Shown here one piece after another: positions 4,332 through 37,362 of a stretch of 49,510 bases of DNA. Source of the DNA: an uncultured Clostridia bacterium (GTDB taxonomy: Bacteria; Bacillota; Clostridia; Christensenellales; UBA1242); contig CALVNW010000008.1 in assembly GCA_944350015.1 (NCBI GenBank), positions 1-49,510 of the forward strand, given 5' to 3'. Position 1 is the stretch's first letter. The number at the start of each line of letters is the position of its first letter. The notes beneath the pieces were generated by a model that worked only from the letters and a program-made list of their open reading frames with translations, did not search any database and was not told where the DNA came from. The position numbers and the translations under genes are program-made.

Positions 4332-5669
4332 TTAAATATTTTTAATAGCCTTTAATAGCTTTTTATTTGTCTTTTTGTTTTCGGCAAAAAGTTCTTGCTC
4401 GCCATTATCGGTAACTTCCAAAAATCTAATTTTGCCCTTGCAATACTTCTCCATATATTCGCTACGCTTTTCGATACACCTGTCAAGCCCGTCAACTTTA
4501 ACATCATATTTTTTCAAAAAGTAATATAAATCGTGGTCAAACTCTAAGAAAATGTCGTTTGATAGATTTGGTAAACTTTCGCCAAGTCTAGAGCAAATGT
4601 AAAGTTTGATTGGCTCGTTTGAGTTTCTAAAAACAGCTCTTGTAACTAAATTAAGACTGGAGTATTCAAGCAAAGCCCCTTCCTCAAGTGGCATCTCCTT
4701 AGGATGCTCGTTCATCTCCTTGATTAGGTCAAGTCTAACCTTAGCCAAATCTTCACCACTAAACTCTTCATCTTGTGTCAAGGTATTTATAATAAAATCG
4801 GCTTCAAACTCTGACCTAAAAAGCAGACCTTTTTCTTCTAGCTTAAAAGGAAGGTTATTTCCAACATCAAAGACATACTGATTGCGCTTTGACTCCTCTC
4901 TATTGTCAAGCGACATATCAAGTCCTCTCGTAAACGCCTCAATCTCTTTTTTCTTGATTATAGGTAAAAGCAAGGCGCAAAGCACCACTCCGCTGACTAG
5001 GCACAATAGAAAAATGCCAAAGAATACCCAGAATGCCACACCTATAGGGTCACTAAACATAATCATAGGCACGAGAAAGACAAGCGCCATCAAAAGTAGC
5101 GGGATAGGATACTTTAGATACTGCTTTCTTATTATAGACACAGGTATAAATCTGGTGTTTATCAGCTTAAAGGTGTCGGCTCGCACCATCTTTTTTGAGG
5201 TCAAGAATTTTGCCAAAGCAAATATATCAAAGGCAAGAAGCACGCCAAACAGCACTCCAATTATTATTGCACTGATTTGGTAGTTGTCCTTTATAAGTTT
5301 AAGCCCATCTGCCTCGCTAAAACCATAACTTGCACCCGAAAAACCAATCACTTCATCACTTAAAATATATAAGGTTAGACTCTCGCCCTGCAGTGCCAGC
5401 AACTTTTCGCCGTCAAGCTCGCCTGCAACGATTGCATTAACATTATACTCTCGCTCTTGGTCAAGAAGGATGACAAAGCTCTCTTCCCTCTCGGTGACCT
5501 CAACCACCTGCCCAGACACCTGCACAACCTTTTCTTGCTTAACTCCAGCCGACAGTACGCATACCAAAATAAGTATTGCAAGAAAGCCGACAACTGCAAC
5601 CGTAAGCGTAACAAATAATTGCCTATAAAATCTTCTCTTCGAATTTTCAACCGCTTGAATATTTTTCAT
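4332..5669 (-). CDS. Multi-pass membrane protein of unknown function, 445 aa
   Basis: One hydrophobic helix lies at about residues 17-39. A mostly beta-like extracytoplasmic segment follows (about 45-125), rich in Val, Glu and Gln with VSGQVVEVTEREE. Three more helices lie at about 132-155, 190-208 and 213-240. A long charged soluble C-terminal region (245-445) ends in Lys-rich sequence. No catalytic motif is visible. The layout suggests a membrane-anchored sensor or assembly factor, but I cannot name a family. The gene is monocistronic: downstream is the P-loop kinase fragment, and upstream is a very AT-rich 316-base gap that must hold its promoter. Confidence 0.8.
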   Translation of the reverse strand: MKNIQAVENSKRRFYRQLFVTLTVAVVGFLAILILVCVLSAGVKQEKVVQVSGQVVEVTEREESFVILLDQEREYNVNAIVAGELDGEKLLALQGESLTLYILSDEVIGFSGASYGFSEADGLKLIKDNYQISAIIIGVLFGVLLAFDIFALAKFLTSKKMVRADTFKLINTRFIPVSIIRKQYLKYPIPLLLMALVFLVPMIMFSDPIGVAFWVFFGIFLLCLVSGVVLCALLLPIIKKKEIEAFTRGLDMSLDNREESKRNQYVFDVGNNLPFKLEEKGLLFRSEFEADFIINTLTQDEEFSGEDLAKVRLDLIKEMNEHPKEMPLEEGALLEYSSLNLVTRAVFRNSNEPIKLYICSRLGESLPNLSNDIFLEFDHDLYYFLKKYDVKVDGLDRCIEKRSEYMEKYCKGKIRFLEVTDNGEQELFAENKKTNKKLLKAIKNI

Positions 5670-5985
5670 CTTATCCCCTTGTACCTTGAAATTAAATTTA
5701 TTATTTGCAACTTTATTTAAATTAATTTAAGTTTTAATTTAAAATATATTTATTTTGAAATTTTTACTTAAAATTTACTTTATTTTTTTATTTTTTGTAT
5801 ATTTTTATTTATTTTTTGATTTTTTCTATTTTTAAACTATTTTTTATAAATAAAAATGTTTTTTATTAAAATGTTTTTTAATATATTTTAAACTCAATTT
5901 TTAATATAATTATTTATAAAAATTATTATTTTTTTATATTTTAACCTATTTTTTTGATTTTTGGTTATTTTTTAACAGATTTTCT
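5670..5985. other. AT-rich intergenic gap without a gene
   Basis: About 316 bases, almost wholly A and T with many TTTTTA and TTTAATT runs. No open frame with a ribosome binding site is seen on either strand. It separates the guanylate-kinase-like gene (whose 3' end is at 5986) from the membrane protein gene transcribed away from it, so it should contain a promoter for the latter and a transcript end for the former. No clear hairpin was found. Confidence 0.6.
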
Positions 5986-34775: not shown

Positions 34776-35156
34776 ATGGAAAAATCAAAAGTATATTTCA
34801 CTAGAGATATTTCGCCTAGTTCTCTTGTCAGACTTTATGAGAGCGTTGGTAAGACTCTTTGCGGGAATATCGCAATCAAAGTTCACTCAGGCGAACCTGG
34901 TGGGCATAACTTTGTTAAGCCTTCCTTTATGAAGGAACTTGTGCAAAAGCTTGGTGGCACAATCGTTGAGTGTAATATCGTTCCGCTTGTTATAATAGGC
35001 ATAAAACTTTTGCTAGAGAAAAAAAGGATAAACAAAATAACGAATAATACGCTAGGAGGCATTTGTCCTATGGAAGAGGCGGTTTTAAGCATAGACGACT
35101 ATACTGACGGTTATCATATTTTAAAAGAAAAATTAGGAAAATTAAAAAATAAATAA
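34776..35156 (+). pseudogene. N-terminal remnant of a DUF362 (iron-sulfur-type) protein
   Basis: The first 66 residues match the N-terminus of DUF362 proteins: KVYFTRDISPSSLVRLYE, then IAIKVHSGEPGGHNFVKPSFMKELVQKLGGTIVECN. At the point where the family has TAYGGxR and about 200 further residues, the reading changes to unrelated sequence. The 126-residue frame then ends behind a second patch (MEEAVLSIDDYTDGYHILKEKLG) preceded by its own AGGAGG, which may be another gene fragment. Full-length members are over 300 residues. The MerR-type promoter upstream is intact, so the truncated gene may still be expressed. Alternatively it is a genuine short variant. Confidence 0.55.
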
Positions 35157-35374: not shown

Positions 35375-35403
35375 TTGACAAAAATAGCTAATTTTGATAA
35401 AAT
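35375..35403 (+). promoter_or_regulatory. Consensus promoter abutting the MATE-HAD start codon
   Basis: TTGACA (35375-35380), a spacer of exactly 17 bases, then TAAAAT (35398-35403). The GTG start codon is at 35410, six bases beyond the -10 box, where transcription would normally begin. No ribosome binding site is present. The transcript is therefore probably leaderless. Confidence 0.7.
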
Positions 35404-35409
35404 AAAGCA

Positions 35410-37362
35410 GTGAGTAAAACGAAAGATTTTTTTTCTTATTTTGGGCAGACGATAAAAAAGGCAAAATATTTGATAATAAAAGGTGTGGTAATTGCAGTTC
35501 TCTACACCGTTATTTCTGTACTCGCAAATTTACTTGAAGTTGAAGAGCTAACCTACCTTAATGCCCTTCTTGCACTAAACTATTTTGCATCTATGATTTC
35601 TTTCGGTGTCTCTCAAGGCACTAAAATACTCGTCAATCAAAATATTTCAATTAAGCAAAGGGTTGAAAAATCTGTCAAGACTGGCTTTGAACTAACTTTA
35701 ATATTGTCTATTTTAACAACAGCATTGCTTGTGCTATTTCCAAAATTTATTATGGTAGGTGTAATGGGCTACACGCCAGCAAATTACACTTTCTATTATT
35801 TAATGTGTGTTTACTTTTTCTTGACGTGCATATATGGATATCTTGAAAAATCTCTTGAACAACTTGATATGTTTAAGCCAATATTCATATCAAATTCAGT
35901 CAGTTTGACATTTTTAATCGTCAGTTTCTTGCTTTTGTACCTAATTGGCGAATACCTTTTAACATACATCGCAATTGCATATATTTTAAGTGCGGTCATC
36001 CTATGTGCCACCTACTATATATTGCTATATAAGAAAAGTGAGCAAAAAATCAATGTTCTTAAGTTCACAACAATAACCTTAACCAAAAGACAATGGGTTA
36101 TAATACTATCCAATTTTCTCACCGAAATAATTTGGGAAGTTGGCTATTATGCCACAAGCGTCTTTATGATGAGAATGGGTGACACTCTATTTAATAGCTA
36201 CTCCTACCTTGAGAATGTGCTTGACATCTTTAACAGTTTACTTCTCACAGTGCTTGTCGTCATATCACTAGATATTGCAAGAGCGCTAGGCGAAGACAAC
36301 TTCGACCACGCAAAATATATTGCCAAAAATTCGCTACTGATAACGCTATTTCTCTGGGGATTTTATGCTGTCTGCTCGCTTATTTTTATCTATCCTTTCG
36401 CACTTGGAATAAATGACAAATATTTTAGCGCTATGTTTACCATTCTCCCTTGCTATGTCGGCATTCATCTGTTTAGATTCTTTACTTGGAACTTTTCTTC
36501 ATATATGTTAAGGCTCGGCGGAAAAGAAAACTTGCCATTACTTATAATTGAGATTTTATCAACAATTTGGCTCCTTGTGCTTTGTTTTATATCAAGGTTT
36601 ATACCAAATAACACCTTCCTTGTATACTTCTTGATAACCTTGCCCGACATTGTCACCCTTCCAATTCTATTCTATTTATATAAACGCGGGAAATGGCTTA
36701 ATAACTTAAGAAAAGACCCAAACCTTCTTTCAAATAAAATTAAATGCTTTATATTTGATTTTGATGACACCTTATATTACAATATAAATTGGACCTCTTG
36801 GAATAACCTAATAAGAAATTGGACGAGGGAACATTTTGATAGCTATACCGACGAGGAGTATAAGACTTTACTAAAAAATAACCTAGGTAAAAGTCAAATT
36901 GAACAGGGAGAGGATATCATAAGACTACTCATTAAAACCGAAGGCAGTGCAAAAGCCTTTCTAGATTTTAGAGAAACTGCCGACAAAAATCTAAGTGAGG
37001 AAGAAAAAAATGCCACCACGGTGCCAAACAGCGAACTTAAAAAGTTTGCCTCTCAATGCAGAAGCAAAAATGGAAAGATGATAATAGTTTCAAACAACAC
37101 CTTGCAAGGCATCAACGCTTTTGCTATGTATCATAATATTGAATTAAAATTATTTGATGATATACTTGTCAACAAATACCCTGCCGAGGACTTCAGCAAA
37201 AAGCATCTCTATGAAGAAGTGCTTAAAAAATATGGCTTTTCGCCCTGCGAAGTGCTTGTCATTGGTAACAATTTTAAGTCTGACTTACTGCCTGCAAAAT
37301 CGCTAAAAATGCGCACTTTCTTGTGTAAAGATGGCTTTACTTATGAGGAAGTGGTTAATTAA
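35410..37362 (+). CDS. MATE/MOP-type flippase fused to a HAD hydrolase
   Basis: A 650-residue fusion. Residues 1 to about 435 form some 12 hydrophobic helices with the look of the MATE/polysaccharide-flippase (MOP) superfamily (FASMISFGVSQGTKILVNQN in an early loop, FLTEIIWEVGYYATSVFMMRMG at the half-way repeat). Residues from about 445 form a cytoplasmic HAD domain: motif I FDFDDTLYYN (nucleophile near Asp 451), motif II IIVSNNT, a conserved Lys in LVNKYPAEDFSKKH, and motif IV VIGNNFKSDLLPA. All four HAD motifs are intact, so phosphatase activity is expected. The start is GTG with no ribosome binding site behind a perfect promoter. It is followed after eight bases by a lipoprotein gene. Fusion of flippase and phosphatase suggests flipping coupled to dephosphorylation of the carrier or cargo; substrate unknown. 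Confidence 0.88.
   Translation: MSKTKDFFSYFGQTIKKAKYLIIKGVVIAVLYTVISVLANLLEVEELTYLNALLALNYFASMISFGVSQGTKILVNQNISIKQRVEKSVKTGFELTLILSILTTALLVLFPKFIMVGVMGYTPANYTFYYLMCVYFFLTCIYGYLEKSLEQLDMFKPIFISNSVSLTFLIVSFLLLYLIGEYLLTYIAIAYILSAVILCATYYILLYKKSEQKINVLKFTTITLTKRQWVIILSNFLTEIIWEVGYYATSVFMMRMGDTLFNSYSYLENVLDIFNSLLLTVLVVISLDIARALGEDNFDHAKYIAKNSLLITLFLWGFYAVCSLIFIYPFALGINDKYFSAMFTILPCYVGIHLFRFFTWNFSSYMLRLGGKENLPLLIIEILSTIWLLVLCFISRFIPNNTFLVYFLITLPDIVTLPILFYLYKRGKWLNNLRKDPNLLSNKIKCFIFDFDDTLYYNINWTSWNNLIRNWTREHFDSYTDEEYKTLLKNNLGKSQIEQGEDIIRLLIKTEGSAKAFLDFRETADKNLSEEEKNATTVPNSELKKFASQCRSKNGKMIIVSNNTLQGINAFAMYHNIELKLFDDILVNKYPAEDFSKKHLYEEVLKKYGFSPCEVLVIGNNFKSDLLPAKSLKMRTFLCKDGFTYEEVVN

Follow-up and report, generated by a model that had tools for sequence, protein, structure and literature searches.

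Does a membrane transporter that shares one polypeptide chain with a phosphatase also share its task? The question is raised by a locus in a 49,510-nucleotide stretch of DNA from an uncultured Clostridia bacterium of the gut (contig CALVNW010000008.1 of assembly GCA_944350015.1; hereafter the window). An initial annotation had described positions 35410-37362 as a MATE-type flippase running into an intact HAD phosphatase, an order of domains that it considered unusual, and had proposed that phosphatase action on the cytoplasmic side might recycle a lipid phosphate carrier. The ORF call returned exactly these limits, with one uninterrupted 650-residue frame on the forward strand and no internal stop (Table 1). 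The genome comprises 1.25 Mb in 28 contigs, is 98.46% complete and holds one match to the fusion protein; ARAGORN placed no tRNA in the window. Promoter-like sites were called by consensus match only, and their 29 occurrences compare with a mean of 19.3 in shuffled sequences. The best of these sites ends 6 bases 5' of the GTG, and the fusion mRNA may be leaderless if that element is used.

Table 1. Features of the fusion locus. Positions are those of the window; residue numbers are those of the fusion protein.
Feature	Positions	Strand	Basis
Promoter-like TTGACA-17-TAAAAT	35375..35403	+	Ends 6 bases before GTG; best of 29 sites, 11/12 matches
MATE-HAD fusion gene, 650 aa, GTG start	35410..37362	+	ORF; Pfam; 26 full-length fused proteins including the window's
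MOP/MATE-like transporter half, residues 1-430, 12 predicted membrane helices	35410..36699	+	Pfam MatE; model helices; Foldseek best 3wbn/4mlb/6hfb; loop charges
Linker, residues 431-444	36700..36741	+	W429-to-motif I distance in homologues; pLDDT block means 84 and 91
HAD domain, residues 445-650, helices between motifs I and II read as C1 cap	36742..37359	+	Pfam Hydrolase/HAD_2; model secondary structure; profile match to 2hoq and 3ddh
HAD motif I, D450 (nucleophile position) to D452 (acid/base position)	36757..36765	+	D450 in 25/26 and D452 in 21/26 fused homologues
HAD motif II, S561	37090..37092	+	S 24/26, T 2/26
HAD motif III, K597	37198..37200	+	26/26
HAD motif IV, G619-N620-x4-D625	37264..37284	+	G 26/26; position 620 N in 15, D in 11; D625 26/26
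Lipoprotein-like gene, 282 aa	37371..38219	+	8 bases downstream of fusion gene; TIM-barrel-like model

Both halves of the protein scored above their Pfam cut-offs, MatE (PF01554) at residues 23-168 with an E value of 4.3e-7 (30.2 bits against a cut-off of 24.9), Hydrolase (PF00702) at residues 444-631 (E 3.5e-9) and HAD_2 at residues 448-637 (E 6.7e-8). The MurJ (PF03023), Polysacc_synt and P-type ATPase families were not listed by Pfam for the window protein at E values up to 1. The NCBIfam model TIGR00797 (matE) gave an E value of 1.9e-9 and 36.9 bits against a cut-off of 147.4, which places the protein among MATE-like transporters outside that subfamily, and several NCBIfam HAD subfamilies (CTE7, YqeG and REG-2-like) matched, each below its own cut-off. 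Among 14 aligned family members, 11 matched the Pfam MatE model at E <=0.01 and two matched Polysacc_synt (PF01943) weakly, the best with E 5.5e-4.

An AlphaFold2 model built with 14 homologues (pLDDT 88.0, pTM 0.79) begins with twelve long helices (residues 2-426), which a short linker connects to an alpha/beta HAD core with a Rossmann-like order of strands and helices; we read the modelled helices 462-533, which lie between motifs I and II, as a putative C1 cap. Foldseek returned 52 matches to this model at E <=0.001, with MATE transporters on top (3wbn, E 2.3e-9), WzxE and MurJ ranking after them and the HAD protein 2hoq at E 3.5e-4; the best alignments (3wbn, 4mlb and 6hfb) share 12-15% identity. 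A transporter from outside the MOP group is therefore rejected on the strength of Pfam MatE and Foldseek. With helix limits placed by eye on the model, the 26 fused proteins described below carry on average 22.2 Lys and Arg in 101.8 inner-loop residues and 2.5 in 51.1 outer-loop residues, an inner excess that predicts a cytoplasmic location for the C-terminal HAD, as initially proposed. Charged residues are also conserved inside the helices (E239 and R356 in 25/26, E268 and D272 in 26/26), and as a test for a flippase they proved not to be decisive. Two unfused relatives from two other families of the class (L103 and L104; MatE E 2.7e-44 and 3.4e-41) end directly after a KKW-type motif, at the point where the linker of the fused proteins begins, which suggests that a complete transporter was joined to a complete HAD. 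Altogether, ORF, Pfam, model and Foldseek agree on an in-frame fusion and show one chain that, judged from sequence and model, unites a complete 12-helix MATE-like MOP transporter with a complete, apparently capped and predicted cytoplasmic HAD.

Full-length fused frames occur in 24 of the 112 genomes of the window's genus, its own genome included, and an intact fusion gene was not found in the other 88; two further genera (G021 and G024) among the 147 genomes of the family also carry a full-length fusion. This yields 26 distinct fused proteins from 26 genomes, 624-666 aa long and 27-92% identical in pairs. A first scan of the genome collection had given seven relatives, six of them full length, and six loci reached by two search routes represent the same proteins and are counted once among the 26. 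The order, class and phylum samples, which overlap, contained the fused form in 6 of 347 genomes (E 1e-20, all of this genus), 4 of 391 (all of this genus) and 1 of 398 (the window's own). For the class and phylum searches the threshold was E 1e-12, no more than three candidates were scored in any genome, and the profile was that of the fusion family itself, so that distant, independently formed MATE-HAD fusions would escape them. None of the three samples contained a fused form outside the family, and no title or abstract opening among the literature listed, mostly without subscription journals, names a MATE-HAD fusion. The domain order is thus as unusual as first suspected, and the protein is a new domain architecture made of known families.

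Elsewhere in the family, HADs and transporters of these kinds also occur as separate proteins, and four relatives (L085, L098, L044 and L045) have the transporter without the HAD, which indicates that the HAD is dispensable in some members. The transporter-only L098 matches Polysacc_synt at E 0.0041, below the cut-off. Copies in five genomes (G907, G892, G933, G879 and G886) are truncated or broken, and two others (G930 and G897) gave partial matches only. At L042 (8090-9448) the transporter half extends to profile position 273 and then continues, in one frame, into an unrelated C-terminal sequence, so that this frame is either a natural chimera or a misassembly. A plasmid or phage origin of the fusion was also considered and dropped: plasmids gave no tblastn match, PADLOC matched no model and PHROG returned a weak HAD match alone (E 0.011).

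A spacing of exactly 20 residues separates W429 from motif I in all but three of the 26 fused homologues; L086 has 13 residues, and L043 and L087 have 11. In the HAD tree the 23 fused members of group A cluster with the solo HADs L094 and L096 (support 100/99), which are perhaps HADs that lost their transporter, and L043, L086 and L087 are placed among the stand-alone HADs. These trees, together with the junction lengths of 20, 13 and 11, offer hints that the same two families were fused more than once, with about a third of the forks unresolved; one clade for all fused HADs is not rejected by the AU test (p 0.161), and a single fusion event is accordingly neither established nor rejected. In the transporter tree the unfused L085 (459 aa) groups with three fused members (support 100/100), likely by loss of the HAD, and the unfused L098 is sister to the fused L086 (support 100/99); the starred branches require no fewer than four changes from one state, fused or unfused, to the other. 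From these changes, the broken copies and the patchy presence, the fusion gene appears to have been gained and lost often and to be non-essential to the genus.

The two halves were compared in ten pairs of fused genes, three of which had at least one saturated half. In the other seven, dN/dS ranged from 0.042 to 0.120 in the transporter and from 0.030 to 0.138 in the HAD; these ratios are rough, as many dS values lie above 1. For the window gene and L002 the values were 0.071 (transporter) and 0.138 (HAD). Both halves are under purifying selection. This, the occurrence in 26 genomes and the near-constant junction dispose of the concern that the fusion is an assembly error. The halves of L081 and L083, which come from two species, do not match in divergence, since the HADs are close (dS 0.35) and the transporters diverged (dS 2.07), with a switch near residue 450 that points to recombination near the domain border. 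In L083 (1498-3432) the switch falls near motif I, where both catalytic Asp residues are missing, and an assembly fault may lie at this border, given a single metagenome-style assembly and the Asp pair nearby. The first 160 codons of the window gene (35410-36000) are nearly identical to those of L002, with 95-100% identical third positions against 65-88% in the remainder of the fusion, a contrast that would be a second sign of recombination within the gene.

The HAD half reads D450-F-D452-D-T454 (DFDDT) at motif I, followed by S561, K597 and G619-N620-x4-D625. The domain had been called intact, which holds for the presence of all four motifs and fails at the first acidic position of motif IV, where Asn (N620) takes its place; the solved HAD 3ddh has Asn at the same position (GNSFKSD). 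In HAD enzymes, as reviewed (PMC8069645), the two Asp residues of motif I serve as nucleophile and general acid-base, in that order; Mg2+ is held by the acids of motif IV, and the cap both shields the active site and influences specificity. T454 is kept in all 26 fused HADs and the two Asp residues of motif I in 21, the window protein included. In all 15 stand-alone relatives compared, the corresponding positions read D, D, T, S, K and D, and 12 of the 15 have D at position 620; these 15 are a subset that omits the truncated L040_6, the remnant L097_5, the partial L099_7 and L062_3 (a second copy of L048_16) and leaves out many further matches from the genus, family and class searches. The window HAD is probably active as a phosphatase, and N620 may weaken its metal binding.

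The acid/base Asp is missing from five of the 26 fused homologues. Four of these (L039, L040, L057 and L072), which form one clade, carry D452R, encoded by AGA in three and CGT in one, and all four retain D450, T454, S561, K597, G619 and D625. The fifth, L083, carries D450A and D452Y, and the rest of its HAD half is close to that of L081. All five are probably impaired as ordinary phosphatases, although some active HAD enzymes have no Asp at the second position of motif I, so that D452R need not mean an inactive enzyme. Within the clade, the L057/L072 pair gave a dN/dS of 0.030 for the HAD, a rough ratio as its dS of 2.24 is near saturation, and 0.095 for the transporter; the L039/L040 pair was saturated. 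Directly 5' of the D452R fused gene of L040 lies a truncated second HAD (5271-5711) with motif I intact.

The neighbours of 12 fused loci and of L008 are common only within small sets, shared upstream by the window, L004 and L008, downstream by the window and L002, and otherwise by L003 and L005 and by L006 and L007. Ten neighbour proteins from five fused loci (L003, L006, L007, L038 and L043) were scanned for families and matched an aminotransferase, an MscS channel, Dus, PGK, PP2C, two class II tRNA synthetases, a threonyl-type tRNA synthetase, an SMC/AAA protein and, at L038, an NAD-dependent sugar epimerase/dehydratase-like protein with Polysacc_synt_2 among its matches. One of these ten thus looks like a sugar-nucleotide enzyme; in the window, the scan covered the two flanking proteins, which are not among the ten. 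In the window's own genome the MatE and MurJ models found one other frame, which is SpoVB-like (TIGR02900, 222.6 bits against a cut-off of 372.3).

The lipoprotein-like gene downstream is probably co-transcribed with the fusion in the window. Its product gave no Pfam, NCBIfam or PHROG match and has a conserved GxHxDxEPHQ stretch; the model (pLDDT 89) has glycosidases among its weak fold matches. The gene occurs in 42 of the 147 family genomes and in 24 of 42 genera, it is found in the window's own genome alone of the six family-sample genomes with the fusion, and it adjoins the fusion at two of 12 fused loci (the window and L002). As it is widespread without the fusion and rarely next to it, we rejected it as a conserved operon partner. 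Upstream of the fusion, a 126-aa ORF (34776-35156) with a DUF362-like start (E 0.036) and a DUF1893/TM1506 end (E 1e-4), both below cut-off, is perhaps a remnant or a chimera.

The reading that we favour, with a probability of roughly 40%, is that of a phosphatase-coupled exporter acting on a cytosolic metabolite. The HAD would sit at the cytoplasmic mouth of the transporter and strip the phosphate from a small metabolite (a sugar phosphate, a nucleotide or similar), and the product would be passed to the transporter and exported; the loss of charge would free the metabolite and hydrolysis would set the direction. A few relatives may have given up hydrolysis and kept the HAD as a binding or gating domain. 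This is the simplest reading of a capped cytoplasmic HAD held at a near-constant distance from a MATE-like exporter. It is favoured by two domains above their Pfam cut-offs with MATE exporters as the best folds, by the 20-residue junction and the constraint on both halves, and by a catalytic Asp pair kept in 21/26 fused and 15/15 stand-alone proteins. Against it stand neighbours that vary between lineages with no pathway apparent, the loss of the acid/base Asp in 5/26 homologues, one of them also without the nucleophile, the N620 of the window protein itself, and the HAD-less relatives, broken copies and 88 genus genomes in which an intact gene was not found. As the YqeG match lies below its cut-off, the substrates described for B. 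subtilis nucleotidases, YqeG among them (PMC5080769), are not applied to the window HAD.

The D452R clade makes a different relation between the halves nearly as likely as dephosphorylation and export, though still only tentative: the HAD would bind a phosphorylated metabolite, or hold a slow aspartyl-phosphate, and thereby open or close the transporter, with catalysis secondary and lost more than once. The substitutions at motif I, D452R in one clade and D450A with D452Y in a single further homologue, would fit such a gate, as would the retention of the remaining motif residues in all four D452R members and the low dN/dS of the L057/L072 HAD, which makes the altered domain look kept by selection, and the near-constant junction length suggests that the HAD is docked and not just tethered. 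Mycobacterial MviN, for which a pseudokinase domain is described (PMC12599244), would be a precedent for regulation of a MOP transporter by a pseudoenzyme. On the other hand, most fused proteins, including that of the window, keep the catalytic pair, D452R need not abolish activity, and the ratio that speaks for selection is rough in one D452R pair and saturated in the other. It is also conceivable, if hardly to be expected, that the aspartyl-phosphate itself drives or gates the MOP transporter, with a phosphorylated metabolite rather than ATP phosphorylating D450. Hydrolysis would then reset the transporter in the manner of a P-type ATPase, in a separately evolved union of MATE and HAD, and in the D452R clade loss of the acid/base residue would stabilize the phospho-state and give a stricter switch.

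We consider it unlikely that the two halves lack any mechanistic coupling and were joined just for co-expression or for membrane placement of a HAD of general use. The stand-alone HADs and transporters of the family, the broken and truncated copies in several genomes and the mismatch between L081 and L083, where one half could change alone, are compatible with such an arrangement, but it leaves the junction length of 23/26 proteins, the constraint on a HAD half without its acid/base Asp and the hint, from poorly resolved trees (AU p 0.161), of repeated fusion of the same two families less easily explained. Least likely of these rival readings, and very doubtful, is the lipid-carrier recycling that was initially proposed, in which the MOP half would flip a polyprenyl-linked substrate and the HAD would dephosphorylate the carrier or the product. 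WzxE and MurJ do appear among the fold matches, Polysacc_synt is weakly matched by two of 14 members and, below cut-off, by L098, and L038 has its sugar epimerase/dehydratase-like neighbour; however, MATE exporters rank first, MatE is matched by 11 of the 14, Pfam lists no PF03023 match to the window protein at E values up to 1, and the other nine neighbours tested are not polysaccharide genes. Cap-bearing HADs of the helical type mostly act on small soluble substrates, and the modelled cap would ally the window HAD with these. Moreover, the genome has its separate SpoVB-like MOP protein, and an intact fusion gene was not found in 88 of 112 genus genomes, unlike an essential flippase. The proposal is at best weakly supported.

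With exporter and phosphatase in one chain, export coupled to dephosphorylation would become open to direct test, and the D-to-R clade provides a natural set of probable pseudophosphatases on a transporter, with catalytically intact sisters for comparison. A functional parallel is found in sugar-phosphate stress of E. coli, where the HAD phosphatase YigL is described as dephosphorylating accumulated sugar phosphates so that the sugar can then leave the cell; the 2014 review marks the pump for the dephosphorylated sugar as unknown, SetA having been tested and found unsupported (PMC4021124). In YigL, as in our favoured reading, the product of a HAD phosphatase exits the cell, but phosphatase and pump are separate proteins there, and the likeness to the window HAD is one of function only.

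Among proteins of known structure, the transporter half resembles the MATE exporters (PfMATE 3wbn, 4mlb and 6hfb; PF01554) in its 12-helix fold, its MatE match above the Pfam cut-off and its end at a KKW-type motif as in the unfused L103 and L104, and differs from them in its low identity (12-15%), its score below the TIGR00797 cut-off and the C-terminal HAD. The HAD half shares with the capped HAD hydrolases (PH1655 2hoq, 3ddh and the CTE7, YqeG and REG-2-like groups) the four motifs and the helices between motifs I and II, and with 3ddh also the Asn of motif IV, whereas it falls below the cut-off of every NCBIfam HAD model listed and is fused to a transporter. P-type ATPases likewise combine a HAD and a transporter in one polypeptide, but their HAD is internal, bears the motif DKTGT and is accompanied by an ATP-binding domain, whereas the window protein has DFDDT, a C-terminal HAD and no Pfam listing for a P-type ATPase family at E values up to 1. 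Mycobacterial MviN, presumably a MOP member, has the same plan of a transporter followed by an enzyme-like domain, and the loss of catalytic residues in some of the fused homologues brings these closer to it. MviN is described as a membrane-spanning peptidoglycan-synthesis protein that carries a pseudokinase domain (PMC12599244), and thus has a kinase fold, whereas the window protein has a HAD fold and, unlike a pseudoenzyme, keeps both D450 and D452.
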